DNA of 16,470 bases from an uncultured Ruminococcus sp. (GTDB lineage Bacteria; Bacillota; Clostridia; Oscillospirales; Ruminococcaceae). The stretch's first letter is position 1. Each line of letters opens with the position of its first letter. Below the pieces are notes generated by a model. That model did no database searches. It was not told where the DNA came from and saw only the letters and a list, made by a program, of their open reading frames with translations. Below, piece by piece: positions 1-15,420 of the stretch. Position numbers and translations under genes: made by a program. The stretch is taken from positions 1 to 16,470 of the forward strand of contig USCU01000005.1 of NCBI GenBank assembly GCA_900553335.1, given 5' to 3'.

Positions 1-494
1 TTCTCCAGCAGCGCGGCGCCCTCCGCGTCGAAGTCGGTGCAGCCGTCGCCCAGGCGGCGCTTCAGCCCGGCCAGCAGACCCGCCCGGTCCGCGCCGGGCA
101 GATCCATCTTGTTGATGAATACAAAGGTGGGGACGCCGTACTGCTCCAGCAGCCGCCAGAGGGTGCGGGTGTGGGCCTGGACCCCGTCGGTGCCGCTGAT
201 GACCAGGATGGCGCAGTCCAGCACCTGGAGGGTGCGCTCCATCTCGGCGGAGAAATCCACGTGCCCCGGCGTGTCCAGCAGGGTGACCTCCACCCCCTCC
301 AGGGGGAGCACCGCCTGTTTGGAAAAGATGGTGATGCCCCGCTCCCGCTCCAGCGGTTCGGTGTCCAGAAAGGCGTCCTGGTGATCCACCCGCCCCAGCT
401 TTTTCAGCCGCCCGCTGTGGTAGAGCAGGGCCTCCGACAGGGTGGTCTTTCCCGCATCTACATGGGCCAATATACCTACGGCCAGTTTTTTCAT
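1..494 (-). CDS. EF-G/TetM-like translation factor GTPase, N-terminal part (runs off left edge)
   Basis: This gene reads leftward and has no stop in the window; about 164 N-terminal residues are present. They form the G domain of a translational GTPase: a P-loop AHVDAGKTT (about residues 10-18), a switch I region with ERGITI, the G3 box DTPGHVDF and the G4 box NKMD. The order and spacing match EF-G and the TetM/TetO ribosomal-protection proteins, which bind the ribosome and hydrolyse GTP. The start ATG at 494-492 has a GAGGAAG ribosome binding site a few bases upstream. Many Clostridia carry chromosomal copies annotated as 'translation factor GTPase family'; these are not proven tetracycline-resistance genes. 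With only the G domain visible, resistance should not be inferred. GTPase identity is certain, subfamily less so. Codon use is strongly GC-rich. Confidence 0.9.
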   Translation of the reverse strand, partial: MKKLAVGILAHVDAGKTTLSEALLYHSGRLKKLGRVDHQDAFLDTEPLERERGITIFSKQAVLPLEGVEVTLLDTPGHVDFSAEMERTLQVLDCAILVISGTDGVQAHTRTLWRLLEQYGVPTFVFINKMDLPGADRAGLLAGLKRRLGDGCTDFDAEGAALLE

Positions 495-529
495 ATCCGC
501 TTCCTCAAATGCAAAATCTCGTTTGCAGT

Positions 530-538
530 ATTGTACCA
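530..538 (-). promoter_or_regulatory. extended -10 promoter for the EF-G-like gene
   Basis: On the minus strand the sequence TGGTACAAT lies about 35 bases before the ATG, giving a TG-extended -10 (TACAAT). No good -35 hexamer sits 16-18 bases upstream, so it would depend on the extended element. The rest of the 280-bp gap between the two divergent genes is AT-rich from about 600 and holds nothing else I can assign. Confidence 0.4.
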
Positions 539-707
539 CAGTTTTGCCGTACAGGATAGCGCTCTCCCTGTTTTGACTTCTGCCGGGCCGCTCCATTTTT
601 GAAGTCTCCGCTTTACTTATACTCTATATTTTGTGTTTTATTTCTTGCAAATACAATATTTGGTTATTTTGCAAAAATTCCTCTCCAAATTTTGTGTAAA
701 AAACGTA

Positions 708-735
708 TTTCATTTTTGTATCGGTCCTATATAAT
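708..735 (+). promoter_or_regulatory. probable sigma-A promoter for the 70-aa ORF
   Basis: A perfect -10 (TATAAT, 730-735) lies in AT-rich DNA 40 bases before the start codon at 775. The -35 region (TTTCAT near 708) is weak, so the call rests mainly on the -10 and its placement. Confidence 0.45.
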
Positions 736-774
736 ATGATTCTGTAAGTAAATTACAAAAAAGGAAGTGGATTT

Positions 775-987
775 ATGGCCCCGCCACATTATGAGATGGT
801 CTCCCAGCAGTATGATGAGCTCTGCACGGTATACGGTATGATCTGTTCTGTGGACGGTCTCGCGGCGGAGACGTGCGGAGACATCTCAAGCAACGCCGGA
901 CTGGTGGGAAAAATGGTGGAACTGTTCAATCTGTGCGAGCTCCCGCCGGATCGAATGAAGCGCGTTATCATCGACCTGCTCCCTTAG
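775..987 (+). CDS. small DUF6514-like protein
   Basis: A 70-residue soluble protein without signal peptide or membrane segment. The start ATG follows AGGAAGTGG at good spacing, a TATAAT box lies upstream and a strong terminator follows the stop, so this is a complete single-gene unit. The pattern YGMIC (about residues 20-24), a central ISSNAGLVGKMVELFN helix and a C-terminal L-PPDRMKRVIIDLL segment resemble the DUF6514 family of short Clostridial proteins (YGI-C ... IS ... V--LV-L-N ... L-P-HL-DV--D-L). That family has no known function. The resemblance comes from recalled pattern only and needs a profile search. Codon use matches its GC-rich neighbours. Confidence 0.7.
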   Translation: MAPPHYEMVSQQYDELCTVYGMICSVDGLAAETCGDISSNAGLVGKMVELFNLCELPPDRMKRVIIDLLP

Positions 988-995
988 ACCGCAGA

Positions 996-1027
996 GCACC
1001 GGGCCCAGACGGGCCCGGTGCCTTTTT
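996..1027 (+). terminator. rho-independent terminator after the 70-aa ORF
   Basis: A perfect 11-bp GC-rich stem (GCACCGGGCCC, 996-1006, pairing with 1011-1021), a 4-base loop AGAC and a run of five T at 1023-1027, starting nine bases after the stop codon. Confidence 0.92.
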
Positions 1028-1108
1028 GACTGTTTGGTGGCTCGTTCGTCCCCCGCACACGCCCGGCGAGGCTGGCATAGCATGGGATAGCATATGGGAG
1101 GTGCGTCC

Positions 1109-1768
1109 ATGAACGAATCATGCTTAAATATCGGGGACCAGGCCCCTGCGTTTACCGCAGCCACCACCTTTGGGCCGGTCAGCCTCAGCGATTACCAGGG
1201 GAAATGGGTGATTCTTTTCTCTCATCCCGGCGACTTCACGCCGGTCTGCACCACAGAATTCATTGCATTTGCCAAGGCGCAGCCACAGTTTGAGGCCCTC
1301 AACGCACAGCTGCTGGGTCTGAGCATCGACAGCTCGGCCTCTCATCTGGCCTGGGTGTACGCCATCTACGCCGCCACAGGGGTCCAGGTCCCCTTCCCGG
1401 TCATTGCCGACCGGGATGGGAGCATCGCCCGTCTGTACGGAATGATCGCCCCCAACGCCAGCACGCAGGAAACGGTCCGGAATGTATTCTTCATCGACCC
1501 GGAGCAGACCGTGCGCGCCATTCTCGTCTATCCCCTCACCAACGGGCGCAGCATCCCGGAGATCCTGCGTCTATTGGCCGCGCTTCAGGCCACGGATCAA
1601 GATCACGTGGTCACCCCCGCAAACTGGCAGCCGGGCCAGCCTGCCATGGTTCCTCCCCCCAAGACCTACGAGGGGCTCTTGGAGCGGCAGGCCAAGCCCA
1701 ATCCTCAGGGCCTGGAGTGCCGGGACTGGTATCTGTGTTACCGGCAGATGCCGCCGACCCAGGACTAG
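1109..1768 (+). CDS. 1-Cys-type peroxiredoxin (Prx6 / archaeal thioredoxin peroxidase group)
   Basis: A 219-residue peroxiredoxin that reduces hydrogen peroxide or organic peroxides in the cytoplasm. The active-site motif PGDFTPVCTTEF is at about 40-51, with peroxidatic Cys47, Thr44 and Pro40; conserved VRNVFFIDP and RAIL strands follow. The long C-terminal extension ends in EC-RDWYL-C, placing Cys204 and Cys210 six residues apart. In the archaeal Prx6 type (for example Aeropyrum), a Cys pair with this spacing resolves the sulfenic acid. The start is the ATG at 1109, not the in-frame ATG at 1094, because GGAGGT sits seven bases before it while 1094 overlaps that site. No reductase gene is adjacent. 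The family is clear; the electron donor is unknown. Upstream, ATAGCATGGG and ATAGCATATGGG form a short tandem repeat (1077-1098). Confidence 0.95.
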   Translation: MNESCLNIGDQAPAFTAATTFGPVSLSDYQGKWVILFSHPGDFTPVCTTEFIAFAKAQPQFEALNAQLLGLSIDSSASHLAWVYAIYAATGVQVPFPVIADRDGSIARLYGMIAPNASTQETVRNVFFIDPEQTVRAILVYPLTNGRSIPEILRLLAALQATDQDHVVTPANWQPGQPAMVPPPKTYEGLLERQAKPNPQGLECRDWYLCYRQMPPTQD

Positions 1769-1793
1769 CGGCAAGCGCCCGCCTCCGCCCGCG

Positions 1794-1837
1794 CTGTGAA
1801 AGGCCGCGGCCCCAATTGGGGCCGCGGCCTTTCACAG
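1794..1837. terminator. perfect 44-bp palindrome, likely strong bidirectional terminator hairpin
   Basis: CTGTGAAAGGCCGCGGCCCC (1794-1813) pairs perfectly with 1818-1837 around the loop AATT. It begins 25 bases after the peroxiredoxin stop. A T-tract is nearly absent (AAATTT follows), so it is not a textbook intrinsic terminator, though the stem is very stable. The following 160 bases, up to the GNAT promoter, show nothing else. Confidence 0.65.
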
Positions 1838-2000
1838 AAATTTGGAAAGAGAAAAGAGGATGAAAGGAAGAGGATCTTGGCTGCCTGGCTAAACCTAGGA
1901 TAGCCCATTTCCGCCTAAAATGGATGACTTGGCTTTGAACGAACTGTAAAGGATTTGTAAACCGTGGTCAAAGTCGGTACGGAATTATTTTCTCTGATTC

Positions 2001-2029
2001 TTGTCATCTCTCTCAAAACCTGCTATACT
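2001..2029 (+). promoter_or_regulatory. sigma-A promoter of the GNAT gene
   Basis: TTGTCA (2001-2006), a 17-bp spacer and TATACT (2024-2029), with TGC just before the -10 forming an extended -10. The predicted start point is near 2036, leaving a leader of only about 12 bases that is essentially the GAGGTGA ribosome binding site. Confidence 0.8.
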
Positions 2030-2047
2030 GGCCCCGAGGTGAACAAT

Positions 2048-2323
2048 ATGGATTTCCAGCATGAGAAAGGCCGTATTTTTGCGCTTGATGCAGACGGCAA
2101 GCTTCTGGCAGAGGTGACGTTCCCGGCTGAAAACGGCGTGGCCACGATCACGCATACCTTTGTGGACGACTCCCTCCGCGGTCAGGGCGTGGCATCTCAA
2201 ATTCTGGCAGAGGCCGCCGAGCAGATCCGCGCCTCTGGACTGCGCATGAACGCGACCTGCCACGTCGCCGCCAAGTGGATCGCCAAGCATACGGAGTTCT
2301 CCGATCTGACCACCGCCCCCTGA
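2048..2323 (+). CDS. small GNAT-fold N-acetyltransferase (YjdJ / Acetyltransf_CG type)
   Basis: A 91-residue protein matching the short single-domain GNAT family (PF14542 type). Strands EKGRIFALDADGKLLAEVTF and GVATITHTFVDDSLRGQGVASQIL lead into the acetyl-CoA-binding loop RGQGVA (about residues 45-50), a helix ILAEAAEQIRASGLRM and the late strand-helix ATCHVAAKWIAKH. Such proteins bind acetyl-CoA; the acceptor is generally unknown. The start is the ATG at 2048: GAGGTGA lies six bases upstream and the promoter just before it excludes the longer reading frame from 1964. The terminator overlaps the stop codon, so this is a compact single-gene unit. Confidence 0.88.
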   Translation: MDFQHEKGRIFALDADGKLLAEVTFPAENGVATITHTFVDDSLRGQGVASQILAEAAEQIRASGLRMNATCHVAAKWIAKHTEFSDLTTAP

Positions 2324-2342
2324 CCGGGGCGGTTTTCTTTTT
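2313..2342 (+). terminator. rho-independent terminator overlapping the GNAT stop codon
   Basis: CCGCCCC (2313-2319) pairs with GGGGCGG (2326-2332) around a 6-base loop, followed by TTTTCTTTTT. The TGA stop (2321-2323) lies in the loop. Confidence 0.85.
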
Positions 2343-2508
2343 GCAGGGCTGTTTTTCTGTTCCGGACCCGAAAGGCCGCCCGGCAGCCTGTTTTTCCACC
2401 CACATCGGGCTGGAAGGGAGGATATGGGCTGGTCCCGCCGCCTCTGGTTCTGTCTCCAATCGCCCCCGGCCGACATATCCTATCATATATCCATAGGAGG
2501 TGCCGAGC

Positions 2509-2925
2509 ATGATCATGCAGGCTGTTGTAATTGAAGTGCAGTGGGGGCGCCTGCTCGTACTGGACCTGGATGCACGACAGAGAGTCCTTGTCAACACACC
2601 GGATGCGTCCCGGTTTCGTCCCGGAGATACCATTCGTATCTGGTATGACGGCGTGATGACCGCCAGCATACCGCCGCAGATCAACGCATGGGGGATCGCC
2701 GCGATGCCGCCCCATGAATTCCCGCCCACCTTGCCTCCGCCTGGAGCAGGTCCGCCGGTCGTGTGCCCGCCCAATGGCTGCCTACCGGCGGTGCGCCCAC
2801 CGGTGATCTTTCCGCCCGTCATATGGCCGCCCGTCCTCTTCCCGCCGGTGGTGCACCCGCCCCGTCCACCTGTGCGCCCGCCGTTCAGGCCCCGTCCGCC
2901 CCGTCCCAGGGGCAGGTCCAGGTGA
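2509..2925 (+). CDS. hypothetical protein: small beta-rich N-terminal domain plus proline-rich tail
   Basis: A 138-residue protein I do not recognise. The start ATG at 2509 has AGGAGG about nine bases upstream; a GTG at 2500 overlaps that site and is unlikely. Residues 1-65 are compact and strand-rich (QAVVIEVQWGRLLVLDLD, RQRVLVNT, GDTIRIWYDGVMTASIPPQI), looking like a small OB-like or SH3-like barrel. From about residue 70 the chain changes to an extended tail with repeated PPV-- units (VIFPPVIWPPVLFPPVV), ending in an Arg/Pro-rich basic stretch RPRPPRPRGRSR. There is no signal peptide or membrane segment. Many PP motifs suggest dependence on EF-P. A role in an envelope or spore assembly is only a guess. 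A bidirectional terminator follows. Confidence 0.75.
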   Translation: MIMQAVVIEVQWGRLLVLDLDARQRVLVNTPDASRFRPGDTIRIWYDGVMTASIPPQINAWGIAAMPPHEFPPTLPPPGAGPPVVCPPNGCLPAVRPPVIFPPVIWPPVLFPPVVHPPRPPVRPPFRPRPPRPRGRSR

Positions 2926-2960
2926 CGCCAGTCTCCCCCTGGGGGGCATTTACTACATGC

Positions 2961-2997
2961 AAAAAACACCTGAAATCTTCGATTTCAGGTGTTTTTT
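2961..2997. terminator. bidirectional rho-independent terminator
   Basis: A perfect 17-bp stem (2961-2977 with 2981-2997) with loop TTC. The inner 11 bp are mixed sequence and the outer arms are A6 and T6, so it has a T-run on either strand. It can end both the rightward proline-rich gene and the leftward tRNA transcript, which finishes at 3000. Confidence 0.9.
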
Positions 2998-2999
2998 GT

Positions 3000-3075
3000 T
3001 GGTGGAGACAACAGAACTCGAATCTGTGACCTCTCGCGTGTGAGGCGAGCGCTCTACCAGCTGAGCTATGCCTCC
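3000..3075 (-). tRNA. tRNA-Val (anticodon CAC)
   Basis: A 76-base cloverleaf with CCA encoded. Acceptor GGAGGCA pairs with TGTCTCC (one G:U). D stem GCTC/GAGC, anticodon stem CTCGC/GCGAG with loop CTCACAC (anticodon at 3040-3042), T stem ACAGA/TCTGT with loop TTCGAGT. Last gene of the cluster, directly before the terminator. Confidence 0.97.
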
Positions 3076-3090
3076 ATATGGGGAACGTGT

Positions 3091-3165
3091 TGGTGACGCG
3101 TATGGGAATCGAACCCATGTTACCGCCGTGAAAGGGCGGTGTCTTAACCTCTTGACCAACGGGCC
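3091..3165 (-). tRNA. tRNA-Glu (anticodon TTC), with acceptor-stem mismatch
   Basis: A 75-base cloverleaf with CCA encoded. Anticodon stem ACCGC-type core with loop CTTTCAC (anticodon at 3130-3132); T stem ATGGG/CCCAT with TTCGATT loop. Acceptor arms are GGCCCGT and ACGCGTC: every pair forms except position 4:69, which is C:C (bases 3162 and 3098). Usual bacterial tRNA-Glu pairs GGCCCGT with ACGGGTC. The 3' arm seen here would pair perfectly with GGCGCGT. This suggests the two halves come from different genes (see findings). Confidence 0.95.
3098..3162. other. probable assembly junction between two genomes, inside tRNA-Glu
   Basis: Left of this interval the DNA is GC-rich with G/C-ending codons; right of it AT-rich with A/T-ending codons. 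The interval is bounded by the two bases of the C:C acceptor mismatch and contains the highly conserved tRNA-Glu core (about 3119-3149), a sequence shared by many Clostridia and so a natural crossover point for an assembler. Inference, not proof. Confidence 0.6.
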
Positions 3166-3167
3166 AT

Positions 3168-3244
3168 TGGTGGCTGTAATTGGATTCGAACCAATGACAC
3201 TCCGGGTATGAACCGAATGCTCTAGCCAACTGAGCTATACAGCC
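3168..3244 (-). tRNA. tRNA-Met (anticodon CAT, elongator type)
   Basis: A 77-base cloverleaf with CCA encoded. Acceptor GGCTGTA pairs perfectly with TACAGCC, D stem GCTC/GAGC, anticodon stem TTCGG/CCGGA with loop TTCATAC (anticodon at 3208-3210), T stem ATTGG/CCAAT with TTCGAAT loop. The CGGTTCATACCCG core fits elongator Met. Initiator is excluded by the paired acceptor first base; tRNA-Ile2 (CAT) is less likely. First gene of the cluster, two bases from tRNA-Glu. Confidence 0.95.
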
Positions 3245-3267
3245 GTAGCATTTACAGCGACTAGATT

Positions 3268-3296
3268 ATTATATACTACTTTTTTTTGTTTGTCAA
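3268..3296 (-). promoter_or_regulatory. consensus sigma-A promoter of the tRNA cluster
   Basis: On the minus strand a perfect TTGACA (3296-3291), a 17-bp spacer and a perfect TATAAT (3273-3268), 24 bases before tRNA-Met. This is the expected strength for a stable-RNA operon. Confidence 0.95.
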
Positions 3297-3345
3297 GGGG
3301 TTTGTACGGATTTTTGCAGGTTTTTTCAAAAAAACAAAAGCTTCG

Positions 3346-4818
3346 TTACCTTAAATCAAAACCTTGCTCTGCAAACTCCTCTAATACATTTTTCAGCGGA
3401 AAGTTTTTTACTTTGTGATAAGACGTTTTTTCTGAATTAACGTATATTTTAAGATCGCATTGTTTGTTGAAATACTGAGCTACCGTCTGTTTGGTAGTTG
3501 CAATAGAAATACGTTCGATCGGAACTACAACTGTGTGAAAGCTGTAAAACCGACAATAGCTGAGCGTTGCATATCCATCGTGAAAGCCTATTCCCGTCGT
3601 GAAAATTGATGCGAACTTAACAACGATAAACCAAAATCCCGGAATCAAAAACATCATCATCATAAACATTATGATAGACTCCCATTCCGGAAATATCCAT
3701 GCGATTATATAAGCTGCCACAGGAACTAATGCGACAACTAGAATCGGAGTTGTGAGAAAAGACAGTATTGATAAAAGCCGGCTTCTAAGCGTGAGCGTAG
3801 GACGTGGAATTTTCGGAACCAAAACCTTGAGCGACATAAGCATCTCTTCATTGGTAGTAATAGGGACTAAAACCGAAATGTGTTCATTGCTTTTTCCGTA
3901 TCCCGCACAGTTTATGTGAACCGAACATATTTTAAACATTCTCATAAGAAAGCTCTGTCTTGTATCTATAAAATTAATCCGGTTTATATCTATAATGTTT
4001 ATCTGACGGGTGATAATTCCCGATTGTATGATTATGTTTGAACCTTGCCTTACAGCGGTAAAATCCCAATGACGTATGAGATTTATTAAAAAGGAATAAA
4101 GCCACCCCACAACTATCACCAAAACAATAGCTATGGTTATCGGCGGAAGATTTACCGTCATAAACCGTGCCACCTGATTGTTTATATCAAGAAGAAACTG
4201 CTGTTCGATCTCTCTTCCGACAATTCTTGAACCTTGATAAAGAAGCGTTGCGATAAGCACAACACCCGAAATCGTTGACGAAAACAAAAACGAGAAAATA
4301 AAAAGCTGCGTCTTTTTAGGCTGGTATGAAAACTTAGCCAAACCCTCTCCGTGACCTTTGATAATGCTGTATATCTTGTCGAATTCGCTCTTTTTTATTA
4401 TAAGCGTAACGTTATGCTTGTAAAACAGCCTTTTATTCGAGTTTGTGTCAATGTTTATTTTATATGCTCTGAACAAACGAAGAAAGGCGCCTTGAGAACA
4501 GGTTATCGACGAGGCTTCTTTATAATATATTTTCGATTTTAAAAGTCCGAAATACCCTGTTCCTGTCTGGATATATTCTTCCTCTATTATAAAAGATATA
4601 AAAAACCACCTTAAAAACGCAAACCCGAAAATAATGGATACTATCAAAATATCAAGCCATGCACCCTTAAGCCATTCGGCAATATTGAACTTCATTGCTA
4701 TAAGACTTCTTGTAAGAGGGATAAGCAAAAGCCAAAATCCTCTGGTGATATAATTAAAAATCGTAAGCGGATGCTGACGGTATTTAAAAATATAAGAAAA
4801 AATACTCTTTTCTCCCAC
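3346..4818 (-). CDS. bacterial PH-domain (DUF304/bPH2) membrane protein, YdbT-like
   Basis: About 490 residues, the size of Bacillus YdbT. Several hydrophobic segments are visible: near the N-terminus (FWLLLIPLTRSLIAM), about 50-75 (DILIVSIIFGFAFLRWFFISFII), about 175-195, about 220-240 (IAIVLVIVVGWLYSFLINLI) and about 365-410. They separate three soluble bPH2-type units, the first marked by EEEYIQTGTGYFGLLKSKIYYKEASSIT, the second by RQGSNIIIQSGIITRQINIIDINRINFI and the third by GYATLSYCRFYSFHTVVVPIERIS. GGAGGG precedes both TTG (4821) and GTG (4818); I prefer GTG for spacing and codon. It lies 37 bases downstream of the YdbS-like gene, the same order as in Bacillus, where this pair has been linked to antimicrobial-compound resistance. 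The biochemical role is unknown. Confidence 0.88.
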   Translation of the reverse strand: MGEKSIFSYIFKYRQHPLTIFNYITRGFWLLLIPLTRSLIAMKFNIAEWLKGAWLDILIVSIIFGFAFLRWFFISFIIEEEYIQTGTGYFGLLKSKIYYKEASSITCSQGAFLRLFRAYKINIDTNSNKRLFYKHNVTLIIKKSEFDKIYSIIKGHGEGLAKFSYQPKKTQLFIFSFLFSSTISGVVLIATLLYQGSRIVGREIEQQFLLDINNQVARFMTVNLPPITIAIVLVIVVGWLYSFLINLIRHWDFTAVRQGSNIIIQSGIITRQINIIDINRINFIDTRQSFLMRMFKICSVHINCAGYGKSNEHISVLVPITTNEEMLMSLKVLVPKIPRPTLTLRSRLLSILSFLTTPILVVALVPVAAYIIAWIFPEWESIIMFMMMMFLIPGFWFIVVKFASIFTTGIGFHDGYATLSYCRFYSFHTVVVPIERISIATTKQTVAQYFNKQCDLKIYVNSEKTSYHKVKNFPLKNVLEEFAEQGFDLR

Positions 4819-4855
4819 CAAAGATCCCTCCTTTTAAACAATTCAGCAAAACCGT

Positions 4856-5308
4856 TTAGTTCAAATTGTCCTTTTTCTTTATATATTCTTCAAGAAAGCT
4901 TATGATTTCAAGCGCATCGTTTCTTGACAAGAACATGAATATAACACGTCCTCCAAAGGCGTTTATCGTAACAAAATTCAGCCCCGTAAACTGTGAAAGC
5001 GGAAATATTACCGAAGAAACATACTGTATAGACTCGAGCTTCATATACTGCTTTGTGAAAAAAAGCATTCCTGCTTGTTTCCTTATATCTTTAGGTCCTA
5101 TCGTATATCTCGATGACTTAGCATAAATCGGAAGAAATATACAGCCGTACAAAACTGTCACCGTCACAAAAAGTCCGATAACAAGCCACATGATAATAGG
5201 ATAATCGGAAAGATAAACAAAGCTCAGATATGTGACAATAAGGGTAATCAAAATCATCGCCAGTCTGATAAAGTTTATTGCCGCTTTGTTCATTTTATAC
5301 GTTTTCAT
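4856..5308 (-). CDS. bacterial PH-domain (DUF304/bPH2) membrane protein, YdbS-like
   Basis: 150 residues with two adjacent transmembrane helices (about 13-33 and 37-60) followed by one bPH2 unit: RYTIGPKDIRKQAGMLFFTKQYMKLESIQYVSS and a C-terminal helix EIISFLEEYIKKK. This is the YdbS architecture: a two-helix anchor with a cytosolic PH-like domain, presumably partnering the larger YdbT-like protein next to it. The start ATG has AAAGGAGAG ten bases upstream; a second in-frame ATG at codon 6 is possible. It sits 36 bases after the dUTPase-like gene, and all three genes are probably cotranscribed. Confidence 0.86.
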   Translation of the reverse strand: MKTYKMNKAAINFIRLAMILITLIVTYLSFVYLSDYPIIMWLVIGLFVTVTVLYGCIFLPIYAKSSRYTIGPKDIRKQAGMLFFTKQYMKLESIQYVSSVIFPLSQFTGLNFVTINAFGGRVIFMFLSRNDALEIISFLEEYIKKKDNLN

Positions 5309-5344
5309 TTAAGCTTCGCTCTCCTTTAAGAAAAAGACGTCCCC

Positions 5345-5752
5345 TTAGTTTTTCTTTATATCTCCTGCTGTTAAGCTCGGAATAGATACACGGGTTACAA
5401 CAAGCCTTGCGATTTTTTCTCCGTTACTTATCGTTCTCATAACCTTCGAGCCGTTCATTAGCGCTACAGCTATCTCACCCTTATAGTCGCCTGCAATAAC
5501 TCCTATGTTATTTGCAAGATAAATCTGCTTTTCAGTAACAAGTTCATTTGCAGGCATAAGCAGCAAAGACAGATCAGGGAATTCTCTTTCTTTCATCTCG
5601 AAGGCTATAGCCGTTCTTATTATTTTAATATCTCCCGGAAACAGAACCTTATCCTCATCTAAATATGCGTAAAGCTCAAAAGCCGGTGCTTTTCCTTTAG
5701 ATACTGTAGGGACCTTTGCGTCCTCTTTTACCTTTTTAAATACTAGCTTCAT
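5345..5752 (-). CDS. dUTPase-fold protein lacking the catalytic motifs (pseudo-dUTPase)
   Basis: 135 residues that align along their length with trimeric dUTPases: PT--KG-APAFELYAYLDEDKVLFPGD (motif I region), TAIAFEM, a motif II region, IYLANNIGVIAGDYKGEIAVALMN (motif III) and ISNGEKIARLVV (motif IV). True dUTPases hydrolyse dUTP to dUMP and pyrophosphate. Here the motif II P-R-S-x is P67-A-N-E, the motif III catalytic Asp (E. coli I-D-S-D-Y) is Ala87 in I-A-G-D-Y, the motif I Asp is Glu26, and the C-terminal Gly-rich motif V is absent. It keeps Tyr90 and the fold-defining glycines. It is therefore probably inactive as a dUTPase and may act as a structural or regulatory homologue. The start has AGGAG ten bases upstream. 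It is first of the three-gene set with the PH-domain genes. Confidence 0.78.
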   Translation of the reverse strand: MKLVFKKVKEDAKVPTVSKGKAPAFELYAYLDEDKVLFPGDIKIIRTAIAFEMKEREFPDLSLLLMPANELVTEKQIYLANNIGVIAGDYKGEIAVALMNGSKVMRTISNGEKIARLVVTRVSIPSLTAGDIKKN

Positions 5753-5772
5753 AGTTTATACACTCCTTAAAC

Positions 5773-5815
5773 AAATTCCGAATTTAATTGTCCATTATCA
5801 ACTGTCAATTAATCT
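5773..5815. repeat. AT-rich intergenic repeat, copy 1
   Basis: Between the U32 and dUTPase-like genes: AAATTCCGAATTT (near-palindrome) followed by CAATT/TTGTCCATTATCA and TGTCAATTAAT motifs, running into the U32 stop codon. The same ATTCCGAATT and GTCAATTAT words recur at 12,470-12,555 and 14,331-14,365. Confidence 0.5.
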
Positions 5816-7845
5816 ATTCCTCTATAATAAAGCCCTCTTGTGAACTCGCCTATAGGCTTGCTGCCAGAGAAATATGCATCTATTATCTTCTTTGCGCTGT
5901 CTGCATCCTCACTTGTAAGCATTATGGTTTTAAAGTCAGCATTTTTAATATCCTTATCCAAAAGATAAAGGACCTCTGAATTTAAAAGCTCAAAATACCC
6001 CTTTCCCTTGTGGCAGCTTACCCTAAACGCTTTTCCCACTCTGTCGTATATTTTCTTGTTACAGCCCTTGCAGCTTCCGGTTTTAGCTTTTATCGGGCAG
6101 TTTCTAAAAAGCATAAGCGGAAGATATCCGTAAACTATAATTCCCGTTTTTATAGGGCGATTCAAATCGCTTATCTTTCTTTCCTTTAGCTCAAAAGAAA
6201 GCTCAGCATCAGCTGCTCCCATTTCGCTTATCTTTTCTAAAGAATCCGAGTTTGTAATGTTCATACCAAATCCGGCATGGATAACTCCCTTATCTCTTAA
6301 AAACTCAAAGTGTGCAATATTTTGTGCAAGAAAGTGCGTTATGCCAATTTCCTTCACCCGATCTATCTGCGCCTTTACCGTTTGCTCGTCGGTCATAAAT
6401 CTGTCAAGACTTAAACAAAGCTTCTCTTTTTTTATATCAGTCTTTAAAATTTCCGAAAACGGAAGCGAGATAAGCTCCGCTTTGTCTGTGTCGATTTTTT
6501 CAAGCTGATCTGCCTTTTGCGCCCTTATTCTAAGCGTTGCAGCAGACAAAAAACTGCTGCCGCTCGGTTTTAACGGCTTAATTATTTTATAGTCTTTTAT
6601 AACGGTGTTTTTCTCGTACCTTTTTTTATCGAGCCTTTCTACCGCTGCCCTCCTGAGCGAATTTATTTGAGAAACGGGGATATAAACATCCTCATCAATA
6701 TCGCTTTTTACTTCATGCAGAGTGTAAATTGTATCTTTGAGCTTAATGAGCTGTCTTTTAATTATATCATCATTCATTGCTCGGTTTTTGGCGATATCGG
6801 GAATATTACCGTAAACCTGAGCGCTGACTCCGTCACTGTCGGTTACGGAAAGAGAAATTTTTTCTCCGCTCTTTGCCTTAATATAAAATACTATCTCCGA
6901 GCGTTTAAACGGCGACCTATATTCATTTCGTATTCCGCTGAATGTATCTTTCGCTGACAGCACGTCCTGCTTTTGACGAAAGCCAAACATACTGCCGTCT
7001 ACTTTATCATCAATATAACCGTTTGTAAATCCGCTTCTTGAAAAAACATCCTGCAAAAGCTGTTTGTTGAAATTCCCTTTGCTAAGAGCATTTTTACACT
7101 CTCTCGTTGCCGCCGCAACATATTCGGGGCGCTTCATTCGTCCCTCTATTTTAAATGAAACAACTCCTGCCTCATCGAGCTTCCTTATTCTCTCCAATGC
7201 ACACAGATCCTTAAGCGAAAGTGCATACTCGCCGTTTTTCTTTTCCTTTACACTGAAAGGAAGTCTGCACGCACCTGCACAAAGACCTCTGTTCGCGCTT
7301 CTTGATCCGAGCATTGCAGAAAGATAGCATTGCCCCGAAACAGACATACAAAGCGCACCGTGAACAAAGATCTCTGTTTCGATCCCTGTTTTTACGATTT
7401 CTTTTATTGTTTCAAGTGAGCATTCCCTCGATAAAACGACTCTACTGAATCCAAGCTTCTGTGCTTTTATTGCACCCAACGGCGAATGAATTGTCATTTG
7501 TGTAGACGCATGAAGAGGCATATCGGGAATACATTTCTTTGCTAAGCTAAGAACTCCCAAATCCTGAACAATAATTCCGTCAACTCCGACAGCGCCTGAA
7601 AACTCAAGCTCCTTTAAAACCGCACTCTGCTCATCGTCAAAGTAAACGGTGTTTATAGCCTGATATATTTTTACGCCCCTTTTATGACATTCAAAAACAG
7701 CATCACAAATTTCATCTCTTGTAAAGTTTGCGGCATTATGTCTTGCAGAAAAATGCTCCGAACCAAAATATACAGCGTCCGCTCCGCTGTCAAGGGCAGC
7801 CATCAGCGACTCAAAGCTGCCGGCAGGGGATAATATCTCACTCAT
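5809..7845 (-). CDS. U32 family 'peptidase' (RlhA/TrhP-like RNA-hydroxylation family)
   Basis: 678 residues. The N-terminal TIM-barrel starts ILSPAGSFESLMAALDSGADAVYFG and carries the U32 signature HGALC-MSVSGQC-YLS-LGSRSANRGLCAGACRLP: Cys166, Cys173, Cys189 and Cys193, spaced as in the Fe-S-binding members RlhA and TrhP. A middle insertion (about 300-400) resembles DUF3656, and a C-terminal part has further cysteines (NCPI, GSCKGCNKK). Members studied in E. coli hydroxylate 23S rRNA C2501 or tRNA U34; despite the family name, peptidase activity is doubtful. Which RNA this protein acts on cannot be told from sequence. Its ATG overlaps the zapA stop by one base (TAATG), so translation is probably coupled to zapA, a frequent pairing in Clostridia. 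Confidence 0.92.
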   Translation of the reverse strand: MSEILSPAGSFESLMAALDSGADAVYFGSEHFSARHNAANFTRDEICDAVFECHKRGVKIYQAINTVYFDDEQSAVLKELEFSGAVGVDGIIVQDLGVLSLAKKCIPDMPLHASTQMTIHSPLGAIKAQKLGFSRVVLSRECSLETIKEIVKTGIETEIFVHGALCMSVSGQCYLSAMLGSRSANRGLCAGACRLPFSVKEKKNGEYALSLKDLCALERIRKLDEAGVVSFKIEGRMKRPEYVAAATRECKNALSKGNFNKQLLQDVFSRSGFTNGYIDDKVDGSMFGFRQKQDVLSAKDTFSGIRNEYRSPFKRSEIVFYIKAKSGEKISLSVTDSDGVSAQVYGNIPDIAKNRAMNDDIIKRQLIKLKDTIYTLHEVKSDIDEDVYIPVSQINSLRRAAVERLDKKRYEKNTVIKDYKIIKPLKPSGSSFLSAATLRIRAQKADQLEKIDTDKAELISLPFSEILKTDIKKEKLCLSLDRFMTDEQTVKAQIDRVKEIGITHFLAQNIAHFEFLRDKGVIHAGFGMNITNSDSLEKISEMGAADAELSFELKERKISDLNRPIKTGIIVYGYLPLMLFRNCPIKAKTGSCKGCNKKIYDRVGKAFRVSCHKGKGYFELLNSEVLYLLDKDIKNADFKTIMLTSEDADSAKKIIDAYFSGSKPIGEFTRGLYYRGID

Positions 7846-8309
7846 TATTTAAAAAACGAAGTCTGTCCGTTTTTAGACATATCAACAGCTGATGCTTGCT
7901 CTTTTCCGTCATGCTTCGGATTTACAAACACATTGCTCTGCGGCTGCTTTTGAAACGGCTTTACATGAGTCGCATTACACTTTTGCTCAAGCTCCGTTAT
8001 TCTTTTTTGAAGTTTCGCAATTTCATTGTCTTTTTCAACAATCTCCTGTCTTGCCTTTGATACGTCATCGGCATAGGACTTTATTTGCTGACGAATGTTT
8101 TTAGCGCTCTCTTCGCTTCTTACCGCCTTGTCCAGACAGTCAAGCGATACCAAAACCGCTGCATCGGAAAGAGTCATATTTCCGACTCCCAAAACGATTT
8201 CGGAAAGCTTCTCGTTCAGTCTGTCAGCAAGCGCCTGCGTGTATTCAAGCGTTTCGTTTGTTGTAATATTAAGGTCTTTGTTAAATATCTTTATTTTATA
8301 GGTATTCAT
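7845..8309 (-). CDS. zapA: cell division protein ZapA
   Basis: 154 residues. The N-terminal ZapA domain is clear (MNTYKIKIFNKDLNITT, then EYTQALADRLNEKLSEI and MTLSDAAVLVSLDCLDKAV), followed by a long coiled coil (about 70-115, with NEIAKLQKRITELEQK) and a low-complexity polar tail. ZapA crosslinks FtsZ protofilaments and stabilises the Z ring; the tail makes this copy longer than the roughly 85-110 residues common in other Firmicutes. The start at 8309 is chosen because GGGAGAGG lies eight bases upstream; a longer frame from 8411 would cross the promoter. It is the first gene of a zapA-U32 operon. Confidence 0.88.
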   Translation of the reverse strand: MNTYKIKIFNKDLNITTNETLEYTQALADRLNEKLSEIVLGVGNMTLSDAAVLVSLDCLDKAVRSEESAKNIRQQIKSYADDVSKARQEIVEKDNEIAKLQKRITELEQKCNATHVKPFQKQPQSNVFVNPKHDGKEQASAVDMSKNGQTSFFK

Positions 8310-8351
8310 AAAACATCCTCTCCCTTTATGAATCATGTTACAACCCAAGAC

Positions 8352-8380
8352 ATTGTACCACAATATCACAAAAAAGTAAA
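8352..8380 (-). promoter_or_regulatory. sigma-A promoter of zapA-U32
   Basis: TTTACT, a 17-bp spacer and TACAAT preceded by TGG (extended -10) on the minus strand, about 45 bases before the zapA ATG and just after the terminator of the upstream GH42 operon. Confidence 0.8.
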
Positions 8381-8410
8381 GCATCAGCTTAATATCAAAA
8401 ACTCTATGCA

Positions 8411-8442
8411 AAAATCCCCTGTGCCTTTTTGCACAGGGGATT
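8411..8442 (-). terminator. rho-independent terminator of the GH42 operon
   Basis: A perfect 12-bp stem (AATCCCCTGTGC with its complement, 8413-8424 and 8431-8442) with a 6-base loop, ending in a run of five T on the minus strand. It starts about 16 bases after the stop of the second GH42 gene and separates it from zapA. Confidence 0.9.
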
Positions 8443-8457
8443 ATTACCGAACATCTC

Positions 8458-10398
8458 TTAAGCTCTTTGTATCTTCATTTCAAAGGGCTTGAGCGCCAGG
8501 GTTTTGCCGAAAAGTTCAAAAGATTTTTCCTTATCGGTGTTATTAAAGATAAACCATACCTTTTTGTTTTGTGATTCCCTGGTCGTTATCTCGATTCCAT
8601 CGGGAATGCCCTCTATAAAGTCCACGCCCGAAAGCTCTAGCGCCTCTTTGACTATTTTTTGATAAAGCTTCTTTTCGCCGACTGTCCCTATATAAAAAGC
8701 TGTTCCTTTTTTGACATTATTTTTTGCAGCAGCACATTTTCCTTTAAAATAATCCCCGTCATAAAAGGCGATAGGTTCGGCTGTTTCAGGATTTATAATA
8801 TCGCACCATTGCTTGGCCTTAAAAACCTCACCGTCTGCGAACCGAATATCTACGCTGTCATAGCCTATAGGATCATATTCCTCCACACTTGCACCGACAA
8901 GCGTTCTGAATACTGTCGGAAGCGGTGACATGATACAGTTGTTATGATTGTCCTTAACCCCGCACCTGTTAGTTAAAATTACGCTTGCTCCGTTTTCTGC
9001 CGCCGCATAAAGCCTTTTTGCTACAAACTCATCTGCGACATAAAGCTCCGGTGCGGCAATTACCTTATATCCTTCAAACGAATCTTTTTCACTTACTATA
9101 TCAACGTTTACGCCTAGTTTTAAAAAAGCGTTATGCAATAGCTTTAATTGCTCAAGATAATACATTGTATCCGTCTGCGGCTGAATTTTAAATGCATATT
9201 CGCTGTCGGCCGAGTAGAGTATAGCAACCTCCGACTTTATTTCAGACCCCCTTAAATCCTCAAGCGCTTTTGCTGTCTTACAAAGCTCCTTAAACTCAAA
9301 AAAACGCCTTGAAGGAACATTTGAGTGATCAATCAGTCCGTGCCAGTGCATTTCCGCTCCGCCTACCGCTGTTCTCCAACGAAAATGAACTACCGTGTCC
9401 GCTCCGTGTGCGAACGCCTGCAAGGAATAACCGTTTATCATGCCGGGTGACGGCATTCGGCTCATTGGCGCCCAGCTTCCCATTCCTCCGCTTAACTGTT
9501 CCATTACCCAAAAGTTTTGCTTTTTTATCCCTCTCATAAGGTCGAGGTGAAAGGCATGAGAATAGCATTCTTCAGGATTTTCAGGAAGCTTGGTTGTCGG
9601 GTAATTGTCATAGGATACAAAATCAAGCTCTGAAAACTCCCTGTAAAAATCAATCATCTTTTCACAAAACCATGTGTTCGTAGTAATTTTTACATCAGGG
9701 CAGTTTTTCCTTATTATATCTCGCTGACGCTTAATGTATTCAATTGCATCATCGGACGCAAATCTGTTAAAATCAAGCATATATGCCGGATTAAACCAAG
9801 CGTAATTATAGCTTCCAAACGGCGGATTCACTTGATTCCATGACGAATACTCTCCGCTCCAAACGTTGTTTTTATAGGCCTTGTTTATATTCTCAAGGGT
9901 TTGGTATTTTTCCTTAAGCCATTCACGGTAACGTCCTGTACAAGTTTCACAAAAGCAGAAATTTGCTTCAAGCTCGTTGTCTATCTGCCATGCGACCACC
10001 GCTTTGTTGTCCTTATACCTGCTTGTCAAAAGATCGACAATTCTATCCGCCAGTCTTAAAAAATCCGGATCATTATAACAACGGTGTCCTCTTATTCCTA
10101 TTGCGATTTTCCTGCCGTCACGTCCGGTCTGCACTGCGTTCGGATATTTTTCATACAACCAAAGAGGGGGACAGTTTGTAGGAGTGCAAAGTACAACCTC
10201 AATACCCTTTGAAGAAAAAAGCTCTATGACCTCGTCAAGCCAAGAAAAATCAAACTCTCCCTCTCTCGGCTCAAGTCTGCTCCATGCAAACTCCGCAAGA
10301 CGCACAACCGAAACGCCTGTTTTTTTCATTAAAGATGCGTCCTCTTCCCACAACGCTTTATCCCAATGCTCAGGGTAATAATCAACGCCTATTTTCAT
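8458..10398 (-). CDS. beta-galactosidase, GH42 (second of a tandem pair)
   Basis: 646 residues with the full GH42 layout: an N-terminal TIM barrel starting GVDYYPEHW, a middle trimerisation domain and a small C-terminal beta domain ending FELFGKTLALKPFEMKI. The acid/base is Glu142 in WQIDNELE and the nucleophile is Glu300 in FWVMEQLSGG. Four cysteines (107, 148, 150, 153) match the zinc cluster of GH42 enzymes such as Thermus A4. No signal peptide, so it acts on imported galactosides; GH42 enzymes typically cleave terminal beta-galactose from oligosaccharides rather than lactose in many species. Its ATG overlaps the previous gene's stop (ATGA), so translation is coupled to the first GH42. A terminator follows. 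Confidence 0.96.
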   Translation of the reverse strand: MKIGVDYYPEHWDKALWEEDASLMKKTGVSVVRLAEFAWSRLEPREGEFDFSWLDEVIELFSSKGIEVVLCTPTNCPPLWLYEKYPNAVQTGRDGRKIAIGIRGHRCYNDPDFLRLADRIVDLLTSRYKDNKAVVAWQIDNELEANFCFCETCTGRYREWLKEKYQTLENINKAYKNNVWSGEYSSWNQVNPPFGSYNYAWFNPAYMLDFNRFASDDAIEYIKRQRDIIRKNCPDVKITTNTWFCEKMIDFYREFSELDFVSYDNYPTTKLPENPEECYSHAFHLDLMRGIKKQNFWVMEQLSGGMGSWAPMSRMPSPGMINGYSLQAFAHGADTVVHFRWRTAVGGAEMHWHGLIDHSNVPSRRFFEFKELCKTAKALEDLRGSEIKSEVAILYSADSEYAFKIQPQTDTMYYLEQLKLLHNAFLKLGVNVDIVSEKDSFEGYKVIAAPELYVADEFVAKRLYAAAENGASVILTNRCGVKDNHNNCIMSPLPTVFRTLVGASVEEYDPIGYDSVDIRFADGEVFKAKQWCDIINPETAEPIAFYDGDYFKGKCAAAKNNVKKGTAFYIGTVGEKKLYQKIVKEALELSGVDFIEGIPDGIEITTRESQNKKVWFIFNNTDKEKSFELFGKTLALKPFEMKIQRA

Positions 10399-12452
10399 AG
10401 CTGTTCCTCATCATCAGGTGTTATTATTCTTGCTGAAAATCCGCCTGCTTCAAGAGTTCCGTTTAAAATCTCTCCGTTCAAAACATCTTTATATTGCTTA
10501 TCAAGAGCAAGCGTTTTCTTATGCTCATCAAAGTTTTGTACAAAGATTATTTTTTTGCCCGACTTTTCTCTGTAGGTTACGCTCACACCCTTTGGAATTT
10601 CGGTGTTCATTGCTCGTTCAAGTTCCGCTTCGTCAGCAAGATATGCAAAAAAGTCATCATAAAAGTCCTGATGAGCTGTCGCTGCAAGGTGATAAGCCGT
10701 ACCGCCAAAGTACTTATTTTTTGTAAAAGCAGGCGAACCCTTGTAAAAATCGTTTTGATAAACCGCAAGCACCTCGCAGGTTGTAGGATGAAGTATCTCG
10801 CAAAGCTCATAAAGCTTATATTCTTTTTCCTGCCATGTCATACCGTTTTCTTCGCTGTCATAAAGGCTGTCAGTTTCTTCAACCCACATTCCCAAGACGT
10901 CCGAGAGCTTTTCCTCTGTGTCCTCTCCCATAAAGCAAAGATCGGTTTCATCGGCAACTCCGCTGAAAGCAGTTGTAACAAGCGTTCCGCCGTTTTTAAC
11001 AAAACGTCTTAACTTTTCAGCGATATTTCCTCTGAACATATAAAGCATAGGTGCGATAACAAGGCTGTATTTATCAAAATCAAATTCGCTGTCAACAATG
11101 TCTACACCTATTCCGTTTTTCCAAAAATAGTTGTAGCACTTTTGCAAAACACCGAAATAATCAAGTCCTGCGTTTCTCGGCCCTTGACATTTATCAAGCG
11201 CCCATTTGCTTTCTACATCAAATATTATCGCTGCTTTTGCAGGATTATCGCTCGAATAAACTGTATCGGACAGCTTCTTTATCATCTCGCCGACATCAGA
11301 TACCTCTTTAAACACCCGGGCATTCTCAGAGGACGTATGAGAAATAACCGCAGAATGAAACTTCTCGGCGCTTCCTCTGCTTTGTCTTAGCTGAAAATAC
11401 TGAATAGAATCCGCTCCGTGCGCTATTGCATTTACAGCGGAAAGCATATGCATTCCCGGCTTTTTAAGCTTGCTTATCTGACGCCAATTTGTAGTCGATG
11501 GAGTGCATTCCATAAGCAAATACGGACGCTGTTTAACCGAGCGCATCATATCGTGCGAAAGGCTTTCGTTTCTCGCCATTATTTCATTTGCTCCGGGCAA
11601 GTGCCATTCGGGATAGCTGTCCCACGAAACTATATCAATCTCCCTGCCAATTTTGTAATAATCAAGTCCGTACACATAAATTCCCATCAGGTTAGCGGTT
11701 ACGGGAATATCGGGATTTACCGCCTTTACCGCAGATATTTCCTCTTTCATGAAATCTATCGTCTGATGAGTCACAAATCTTTTCCAGTCAAGATCAAGTC
11801 CATGCACTGATGTTTCGCCTATCCAGCTCGGGCTGTGAATCTGTTCCCAAGAGGTATAGGTATGCGACCAAAAGTGCGCCCACCAAGCATGGTTTAAGTT
11901 ATCAAGCGTTTTGTACTTTTCCTTTACCCACTCTCTGAATGCTTTCTGGCAAAGCTCGCAATGACACTCTCCGCCAAACTCGTTGGAAATATGCCACAAT
12001 ATAACCGCAGGATTGTTTGCATATCTCTCGGCAAGCTTAGTATCTATGATTTTTACTCTCTCACGGTATGCCTTTGAAGTATAGCAATGGTTATGACGAT
12101 GCCCATAAATATTTCTTTGTCCGGTTTCTCCTACCCTTAAAACCTCCGGGTATTCCTCAGCAAGCCACTGCGGGCGGGAGCCGGAGGGTGTTGCCAAAAC
12201 AGTATAAATTCCGTTTTCGTAAAGATTATCAATTATTTCGTCCAGCCACTCGAAAGTGAATTTGTCCTTCTTTGGTTCTAAATTTGCCCACGAAAATATA
12301 CCTAAGCTGACGCAATTTATTCCTGCCTTTTTAAACAGCTCAATGTCCTGCTTCAAAACTTCCGGATATTTCAGCCATTGCTCAGGGTTATAATCTCCTC
12401 CGTGAAGCATATGAGGAAACCTTGGTGTTGCCGGTGAAAATTTATTTTCCAT
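10395..12452 (-). CDS. beta-galactosidase, GH42 (first of a tandem pair)
   Basis: 685 residues. The barrel opens HGGDYNPEQW; the acid/base is Glu158 in WHISNEFG, the nucleophile Glu315 in LLMECTPS, and Cys123, 163, 165 and 168 form the zinc-binding set. It has no signal peptide and is cytoplasmic. It is clearly diverged from the downstream copy (for example WHISNEFGGE against WQIDNELEAN), so the two probably differ in substrate and the pair is not a recent duplication. The start is the ATG at 12452: GGAG lies six bases upstream, whereas the in-frame TTG at 12470 precedes the ribosome binding site. No sugar transporter or regulator gene is adjacent. The leader is long, about 220 bases from the putative promoter. 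Confidence 0.96.
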   Translation of the reverse strand: MENKFSPATPRFPHMLHGGDYNPEQWLKYPEVLKQDIELFKKAGINCVSLGIFSWANLEPKKDKFTFEWLDEIIDNLYENGIYTVLATPSGSRPQWLAEEYPEVLRVGETGQRNIYGHRHNHCYTSKAYRERVKIIDTKLAERYANNPAVILWHISNEFGGECHCELCQKAFREWVKEKYKTLDNLNHAWWAHFWSHTYTSWEQIHSPSWIGETSVHGLDLDWKRFVTHQTIDFMKEEISAVKAVNPDIPVTANLMGIYVYGLDYYKIGREIDIVSWDSYPEWHLPGANEIMARNESLSHDMMRSVKQRPYLLMECTPSTTNWRQISKLKKPGMHMLSAVNAIAHGADSIQYFQLRQSRGSAEKFHSAVISHTSSENARVFKEVSDVGEMIKKLSDTVYSSDNPAKAAIIFDVESKWALDKCQGPRNAGLDYFGVLQKCYNYFWKNGIGVDIVDSEFDFDKYSLVIAPMLYMFRGNIAEKLRRFVKNGGTLVTTAFSGVADETDLCFMGEDTEEKLSDVLGMWVEETDSLYDSEENGMTWQEKEYKLYELCEILHPTTCEVLAVYQNDFYKGSPAFTKNKYFGGTAYHLAATAHQDFYDDFFAYLADEAELERAMNTEIPKGVSVTYREKSGKKIIFVQNFDEHKKTLALDKQYKDVLNGEILNGTLEAGGFSARIITPDDEEQL

Positions 12453-12469
12453 AACTCGCTCCTTTTCCA

Positions 12470-12555
12470 ATTCGGAATTATAAATGCGGAATTCAAAGAT
12501 TATTACTAACCTTAATCCAAATTCCGCTTTCCAAATTCAATTGTCAATTATCGGC
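12470..12555. repeat. AT-rich intergenic repeat, copy 2 (in the GH42 leader)
   Basis: Holds AATTCGGAATT, GCGGAATT (12486-12493) with its inverted partner AATTCCGC (12520-12527), and CAATTGTCAATTATC (near 12539-12553). These words are shared with the two other copies. In the GH42 transcript the inverted pair could fold a hairpin close to the ribosome binding site. Confidence 0.5.
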
Positions 12556-12680
12556 AAGTTTATCTCTTAACTAAATTAACTTGTTAAAGTTTTGGGCATA
12601 AAACAGCCGATTTTTTACTTTAATCACACAATTTGTTTGGGCTTACTGATTTTCTGCTGCCAAAGTGTTGCCACGCATTT

Positions 12681-12708
12681 ATTATAGCAAATCCTCACAG
12701 ATTGACAA
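12681..12708 (-). promoter_or_regulatory. probable promoter of the GH42 operon
   Basis: On the minus strand TTGTCA (12708-12703), a 16-bp spacer and a perfect TATAAT (12686-12681). The transcript would have a leader of about 220 bases. A short dyad TTAAC-TT-GTTAA (12576-12587) in that leader could be an operator, but the evidence is thin. Confidence 0.6.
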
Positions 12709-12721
12709 CTTATTTTTGAAA

Positions 12722-12835
12722 TGTTACGCAATAGAAGCCCATTTTCGGGACGATAGGCATAAAATACTACCTATGCGCCTATTGCGTTTGGAATAGCTTG
12801 AAATATAAGGCTTCCAAAGTACCAAAAGCGTAACA
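12722..12835. repeat. MITE-like structured element with terminal inverted repeats
   Basis: TGTTACGC (12722-12729) and GCGTAACA (12828-12835) are perfect inverted ends of a 114-bp segment without a credible gene. Nested inside are GAAGCC (12734-12739) with GGCTTC (12809-12814), and ACGCAATAG (12726-12734) with CTATTGCGT (12779-12787). It directly follows the GrpB-like gene and may also serve as its terminator. No target-site duplication is obvious. Confidence 0.45.
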
Positions 12836-12862
12836 CCTGATACCTTAATAAACTGAAAGTTA

Positions 12863-13429
12863 TTAATATCTTCCTGCATAAACTCTTTTAGCTTCAGATG
12901 TCCATTTTCTAATAAACTCTGTTTTTGCGTTAGTATAAGCATCTCTATTATGTTCAAACAACTTCCACAATTGCAATTTCATCGTTTCATATTCCTTGGC
13001 TGTTTGTGCATGTTCATTCAAATAATCTCTAAAATACAATTCATCATTGTCTCCAGTATAGCGAAGGTGTATATGATAAACTTTGTCTGCAAATCCGTCT
13101 TTTGTATATCCGCGATTAAACGATATTCTATGCATCTCTGTTGACATACAAATAAAGCCATTCTTTTCAATTACCTTTGCGGTATTTTGAATATCGGAAT
13201 CCTTTGATACTTCAATCAGTACATCAACAATATCTTTTGCCCATATCCCAGATATAGCAGTACTTCCAATATGACTAATTCTCTCAATCGAGCACTCAAA
13301 CAATATGTTTTTTAAGAAAGATTCTATTTCATCATAAAATATATTCCATTTATCATTATGTGCCACAAGGGATATGGGAAACAATTCCCATAATTCTTCT
13401 ATAGACATTTCCGATAGTTCTTTTCCCAT
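12863..13429 (-). CDS. GrpB family protein (UPF0157, nucleotidyltransferase fold)
   Basis: 188 residues. The family core is present: RISHIGSTAISGIWAKDIVDVLIEV, with HIGST at about 53-57 and Asp66/Asp69 at the positions of the metal-binding acidic residues of the fold; later HIHLRYTGDNDELYFRDYLNEHAQTAKEYETMK and a C-terminal KTEFIRK. Functions in this family are poorly known; some members are fused to dephospho-CoA kinase. The start ATG at 13429 is preferred: GAGG lies ten bases upstream, whereas the TTG at 13435 is only four bases from it. Base use is AT-rich and third positions look different from the flanking GH42 and popT genes, hinting that this gene and the neighbouring HAD gene came in together. 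Confidence 0.88.
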   Translation of the reverse strand: MGKELSEMSIEELWELFPISLVAHNDKWNIFYDEIESFLKNILFECSIERISHIGSTAISGIWAKDIVDVLIEVSKDSDIQNTAKVIEKNGFICMSTEMHRISFNRGYTKDGFADKVYHIHLRYTGDNDELYFRDYLNEHAQTAKEYETMKLQLWKLFEHNRDAYTNAKTEFIRKWTSEAKRVYAGRY

Positions 13430-13548
13430 TTCCAACTTTCCTCAATCATATTCTTGCTAACGCATTCTGACACCAGTTAAACAATACAGAAAAGGCTACA
13501 TCAAAATCATATCAAGCATAAATCAGACTCCCGCATTACTTATCATGC

Positions 13549-14238: not shown

Positions 14239-14244
14239 TCTTTT

Positions 14245-14290
14245 ACCTCGTTTTTGAATACCACATTGTATAAACGAGGTTTGTACAATG
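14245..14290 (-). promoter_or_regulatory. possible pseudoknot/attenuator leader masking the HAD gene's RBS
   Basis: On the minus strand two interleaved perfect stems occur. Stem 1: CATTGTA (14290-14284) with TACAATG (14270-14264). Stem 2: ACCTCGTTT (14280-14272) with AAACGAGGT (14253-14245). Stem 2 contains the Shine-Dalgarno GAGG. The 5' arm of stem 2 lies in the loop of stem 1 and the 3' arm of stem 1 lies in the loop of stem 2, the H-type pseudoknot order, with connecting loops of 3, 1 and 10 bases. Seen in sequence; function is inferred. Confidence 0.5.
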
Positions 14291-14318
14291 GGTGCATTTC
14301 GCTCTCAGACATATAGAT

Positions 14319-14327
14319 ATTATACCA
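14319..14327 (-). promoter_or_regulatory. extended -10 promoter of the HAD gene
   Basis: TGGTATAAT on the minus strand: perfect -10 with TG extension, about 80 bases before the ATG, so the predicted transcript includes the whole structured leader. The -35 region is weak. Confidence 0.55.
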
Positions 14328-14330
14328 TTG

Positions 14331-14365
14331 CCAATTATCAATCAATTTTGCATTCCGAATTAATT
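14331..14365. repeat. AT-rich intergenic repeat, copy 3
   Basis: CAATTATCAATCAATTTT followed by ATTCCGAATTAATTTA, directly abutting the popT stop codon. Shares the ATTCCGAATT word with copy 1 and the CAATT/ATC words with copies 1 and 2. Confidence 0.45.
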
Positions 14366-15264: not shown

Positions 15265-15324
15265 GTTTAAATCTCCTTTTTTCGGAAAACTTTATTTCCG
15301 ATTTTATCTATATTTATCTTCCAT

Positions 15325-15353: not shown

Positions 15354-15360
15354 GTAAAAT

Positions 15361-15386: not shown

Positions 15387-15420
15387 TATTTTTAAAAGGA
15401 CGCTAGGTGCGCTAAAATAA

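Follow-up and report, generated by a model that had tools for sequence, protein, structure and literature searches.

The tRNA-Glu gene of the window (the whole 16,470-nt stretch of DNA analysed here) lies at a break in base composition, and the two arms of its acceptor stem clash at a single position. This arrangement raises the question of whether the genes on the two sides belong to one chromosome or were joined within the tRNA gene. The relevant features are given below, where G179 and G400 are genomes of the same genus and L numbers denote matching sequences.

1–173, minus strand: part of a gene for a translation-factor GTPase of the EF-G / ribosomal-protection type, matching G400 exactly; being a fragment, it is assigned to its family below the curated cut-offs
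174–207, minus strand: switch zone and probable third join, matching neither G179 nor G400 exactly
208–3077, no strand: GC-rich segment derived from a genome close to G179 (17 substitutions, one 1-nt gap versus L061); the exact match stops at 3077
3000–3075, minus strand: tRNA-Val(CAC) (ARAGORN; Rfam RF00005)
3000–3077, minus strand: 78 nt shared exactly by G179 and G400 (tRNA-Val plus 2 nt), proposed second join, from the overlap of matches
3000–3146, minus strand: bridge piece identical to G400 (tRNA-Val, 15-nt spacer and 3′ part of tRNA-Glu), a 147-nt exact match to L092
3091–3165, minus strand: tRNA-Glu(TTC), a hybrid with a C4:C69 clash (ARAGORN)
3098, minus strand (G on the plus strand): C69 of tRNA-Glu, the type of 9 of the 11 genomes of the G179 genus
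3123–3146, minus strand: 24-nt core common to G400 and the AT-rich relatives, proposed join site, from the overlap of exact matches
3123–16422, minus strand: AT-rich segment assigned to a Ruminococcus-like gut clostridium, running from the 5′ part of tRNA-Glu through tRNA-Met and a PH-domain gene to guaB, with the gene order of relatives as far as a zapA-like gene
3162, minus strand (G on the plus strand): C4 of tRNA-Glu, the type of the AT-rich side
3168–3244, minus strand: tRNA-Met(CAT) of the AT-rich side (ARAGORN), with exact 42- to 50-nt matches to L001, L004 and L005
16423–16470, no strand: sequencing adapter left untrimmed, made up of 33 nt, TCTACTCT and GTGTAGA in that order, which ends the guaB frame

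The tRNA-Glu gene and the composition break

Rfam places three tRNAs at the same sites as the ARAGORN calls of tRNA-Met, tRNA-Glu and tRNA-Val, with the tRNA-Glu at 3094–3165. The acceptor arms of the tRNA-Glu are GGCCCGT and ACGCGTC. The 1:72, 3:70, 5:68, 6:67 and 7:66 pairs are Watson–Crick, the 2:71 pair is a G–U wobble, and bases 3162 and 3098 face each other as C:C at 4:69. The initial annotation had described an acceptor stem mismatched solely at 4:69, which is true, and its coordinates correspond exactly to these two bases.

The distribution of the clash was determined using a tRNA-Glu pattern that was first verified on the retrieved loci. These loci contain 16 genes of the C4/G69 type and 10 genes of the G4/C69 type (18 and 11 loci, respectively, some representing one gene twice); C4/C69 is found only in the window, and G4/G69 is found in none. 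In the pattern search of the order, none of 394 genomes contained C4/C69. With C4/G69 in its place, the pattern was observed in 52 of 147 genomes, and with G4/C69 in 0 of 147; the ACGCGTC arm therefore appears to be confined to the G179 genus among the sampled genomes. The initial annotation had named, as an observation that would speak against a junction, a complete genome carrying the identical tRNA-Glu together with the two flanks. Such a genome was sought through the tRNA-Glu alone, and an exact 71-mer of the gene was present in no contig of a collection of 84,980 species.

The base composition and codon use of the genes shift at the tRNA-Glu, as had been noted from the sequence. The G+C content is 0.587 at 1–2999 versus 0.392 at 3166–15500, and the third-position G+C content is 0.68–0.88 in four left ORFs versus 0.26–0.45 in eleven chosen right ORFs. 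The G+C content is uneven within each side: in 500-base windows, the left side spans 0.44–0.66 and the right side 0.33–0.49; the lowest left window (501–1000) is partly noncoding. A tetranucleotide comparison of the two sides, proposed as a check, gave a mixed answer. The left side is near G179 (distance 0.180) and far from the right pieces (0.378–0.468), but the distances of the right pieces to G400 (0.289–0.375) overlap those among the right pieces themselves (0.259–0.333). Judged on these values, composition is a weaker test than it appears, and the case for a junction stands on sequence identities rather than on tetranucleotide distances.

Genomes matching the two sides

The initial annotation had proposed a separate search of each half against reference genomes, and this search separated the halves: G179 matches 208–3077, the relatives of the right side match from 3123 onward, and neither carries both sides. 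The left match resides on L061, a G179 contig of 2.28 Mb. The matching segment contains the start of a GTPase gene, a peroxiredoxin gene, a GNAT-type gene, a proline-rich ORF, a terminator-like hairpin and tRNA-Val. Among the best 120 of 7999, the peroxiredoxin (1094–1768) has similar proteins under the names of Oscillibacter and other clostridia. Some match to it was found in 135 of the 394 genomes of the order, the best being G179 with 100% identity; it was found in none of the five closest right relatives (G001–G005), and among the seven genomes searched, G007 has a 30% match. A perfect 44-nt palindrome at 1794–1837 of the window is also found in G179.

The tRNA genes of G179 follow the order Met, Glu, Val, as in the window. 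Past its own tRNA-Met, the G179 contig goes on at a G+C content of 0.67, and a blastn comparison of this contig with the window beyond 3244 gave no match. The PH-domain gene was found in 0 of the 11 genomes of the G179 genus in a search run without an internal positive control.

The right side is tied to its relatives by the PH-domain protein (3346–4821), whose cluster occurs on 20 contigs, the longest of 184,020 bases. Among 7996 candidates scored, 64 proteins match it with E ≤ 0.001, its own cluster counted; four of them are named, comprising three Ruminococcus sp. proteins and one weak archaeal match. A PH profile scan of the species-genome collection yielded 30 loci; the identity is ≥ 53% in 15 of these, and 23 of the 30 records bear the name Lapin. 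In 14 of the 30 loci, tRNA-Met and tRNA-Glu lie directly downstream of the PH gene; L019 has tRNA-Met at the cut end of the PH locus, and L025 has the tRNA-Met/tRNA-Glu pair elsewhere. No tRNA-Val(CAC) follows tRNA-Glu in any of the 14 loci with the pair, and L010 carries tRNA-Val(TAC) ∼1.3 kb beyond tRNA-Glu.

The tRNA-Glu genes in all 14 PH-linked loci have the arms GGCCCGT and ACGGGTC, in agreement with the earlier proposal that the GGCCCGT arm of the AT-rich side would pair with ACGGGTC. At positions 4, 16 and 19, 13 of the 14 genes have the letters of the window, and nine of these 13 differ from it at position 26; L022 departs at positions 16 and 19. The window is identical to L001, L002, L004 and L005 over tRNA-Glu positions 1–43 (window 3123–3165), an exact match that was confirmed separately for L001, L004 and L005, and differs from these four loci at positions 44, 46, 56, 63 and 68. 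The nearest relatives are 85–87% identical to the window in the PH protein, and the tRNA-Glu of the right source itself is inferred from them, with GGCCCGT and ACGGGTC as its predicted arms.

Between the PH gene and a zapA-like gene, all five loci L001–L005 have their genes in the order of the window. Within this group, GH42 and VCA0040-like genes are present in L003 and L004 only, and genes for guaB (IMP dehydrogenase by Pfam), GrpB and HAD are found in none of the compared stretches. The window contains two adjacent GH42 β-galactosidase genes (8458–12470), with one good counterpart in each of L003 and L004. Its GrpB-like and HAD-like genes (12863–14238) have a low third-position G+C content (0.26–0.30) and sit between the GH42 and VCA0040-like genes, which adjoin in L003 and L004.

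Joins in the tRNA cluster and a probable switch at the left end

The ACGCGTC arm had been assigned to the GC-rich side, on which it would pair with GGCGCGT. This pairing exists in the GC-rich genome G400, whose tRNA-Glu has the arms GGCGCGT and ACGCGTC, but G179, the main source of the GC-rich flank, has GGCCCGT and ACGGGTC. The spacer between tRNA-Glu and tRNA-Val in G179 is also unlike that of the window. The two-source model of the initial annotation is incomplete in this respect, and G400 enters as a third genome; the sequence identities point to three sources, not two. DNA of the window at 2990–3125 has some match in all 11 genomes of the G179 genus, and G400 is 100% identical over 126 bases. 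The GGCGCGT/ACGCGTC type occurs in 9 of the 11 genomes, twice in G402, and G179 has the other type; no tRNA-Glu locus corresponding to the bridge was found in G405. The two tRNA-Glu/tRNA-Val(CAC) clusters of G402 (L068 and L073) lie on separate contigs, through possible duplication or contamination.

The exact matches at 3000–3146 (L092) and 3123–3165 (L001, L004 and L005) overlap, and the right-side join is thus placed within 3123–3146. The conserved core of tRNA-Glu had been suggested as the site of a wrong join, and the two sources indeed share 24 nt there. G179 lacks the ACGCGTC arm, and G400 has both this arm and tRNA-Val; a second join is therefore placed inside tRNA-Val, where the exact matches at 2960–3077 (L061) and 3000–3146 (L092) overlap and the sources share 78 nt.

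The left end probably contains a third switch between G400-like and G179-like sequence at 174–207. Bases 1–173 match L105 (G400:C1, near 255 kb) exactly over 173 nt. The tRNA cluster of G400 is located at 2963.6 kb of the same 3,224,506-base contig; the GTPase match lies 2.7 Mb from it, a distance that would fall to about 516 kb on a circular contig. The 34 bases at 174–207 are identical at 33 positions to L096 and L098 and at 29 positions to G400, and no clean overlap of two genomes is observed there. A single genome carrying the left end without a break was sought in the genus and in the family. For 1–300, the best match in the genus was G400 (96% over 1–291; 10 of 11 genomes matched), and for 120–300, the best match in the family was G179 (93% over 124–300; 102 of 185 genomes with E ≤ 1e-20). 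This switch may be another wrong join or a product of natural recombination.

Origin of the joins

The guaB frame is open to 16422 and terminates within adapter sequence. Bases 16423–16455 read CTGTCTCTTATACACATCTGACGCTGCCGACGA; TCTACTCT comes next, and GTGTAGA closes the contig. We take the 33-mer to be the Nextera read-1 adapter and the 8 bases that follow it to be presumably the i5 index (N504, reverse complement). The adapter at the end and the closure of the guaB frame within it indicate that the window record is an untrimmed short-read assembly. What the adapter reveals is a badly trimmed far end; it does not show the tRNA join itself. The same 33-nt adapter was found in at least 120 stretches of a viral collection; in the matches listed (L106–L185), its distance from an end of the stretch is at most about 120 bases, with the exception of L107. 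The 33-mer is given as a trimming sequence in PMC6460022, in a passage that also names assembly words of 21 and 33.

The window is piecewise identical to different genomes, has stretches shared by the sources at both tRNA joins and ends in adapter. It is very probably a chimeric metagenome contig in which several gut bacteria were joined at shared tRNA sequences, that is, an assembly artefact. The favoured cause is assembly on short shared words, ahead of PCR chimerism and of a living recombinant. The assembler path would start in the Ruminococcus-like genome on the right and cross the 24-nt tRNA-Glu core, which is longer than a word length of 21 and would permit a join on shared words, into a G400-like genome. 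From there it would pass through the 78 nt shared in tRNA-Val to a G179-like genome, which belongs to the same genus, and at the left end probably back into a G400-like gene. As in other inter-genome chimeric contigs of short-read metagenomes, each tRNA join falls exactly within sequence that the sources share, the two flanks have different compositions and nearest relatives, and end trimming is poor. The window differs from such contigs in that its two joins lie in neighbouring tRNA genes of one cluster and leave an acceptor-stem clash.

The earlier view that gene order across the join has no biological meaning is borne out by the match of the two sides to different genomes and by the shared stretches at the joins. 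No gene neighbourhood or gene transfer should be read across 3000–3165. This removes a false neighbourhood of GC-rich peroxiredoxin genes beside an AT-rich PH-domain and β-galactosidase locus, together with a false case of transfer. Where composition breaks at a tRNA, a clash in the acceptor stem is a cheap, sequence-only sign that may expose a wrong join.

Chimeric molecules could also have formed during amplification of the library, when incomplete strands primed another genome at the tRNA core and the assembler followed the products. The conserved stretches at the joins are short (24 and 78 nt), as this scheme would have it, and the contig-end adapter presumably points to an amplified short-read library. 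The scheme requires two or three independent switches in 3.1 kb, each abundant enough for assembly, and is given only a slim chance. Slightly slimmer still is the chance of a real strain, in which a GC-rich bacterium gained a Ruminococcus-like chromosome block and recombination between tRNA genes across identical stretches of 24 and 78 nt fused blocks of three gut lineages, with a mispaired hybrid tRNA-Glu as the outcome. Because tRNA-Met lies next to tRNA-Glu in both lineages, short homology for such recombination would be available, and tRNA genes are frequent integration sites; as in genomic islands integrated at tRNA genes, the composition of the window breaks at a tRNA gene. Integrases, however, normally leave the whole tRNA restored, and this tRNA-Glu keeps its C4:C69 clash. 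The far end of the window, where a second attachment copy would be expected, consists of adapter.

The contents of the window also depart from those of tRNA-integrated islands. An integrase gene beside the tRNA, the mark of such an island, was not recognised by Pfam scans in any of the fifteen window translations, three of which had no match (one of these was assigned once in the right frame). The eleven translations of the right side likewise contain no integrase family, and one of them lacks any match. The far side holds housekeeping genes, the AT-rich block being ordinary chromosome that includes guaB, and two different GC-rich genomes are mixed inside 3 kb, which also argues against a recombinant strain. 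Acceptor stems do sometimes carry single mismatches, and the clash could in principle be a natural trait of one genome's tRNA-Glu with the composition change marking an ordinary island. This reading is given a negligible probability, as C/C tRNA-Glu is missing from all 394 genomes of the order and the matching genomes carry properly paired versions of each half.
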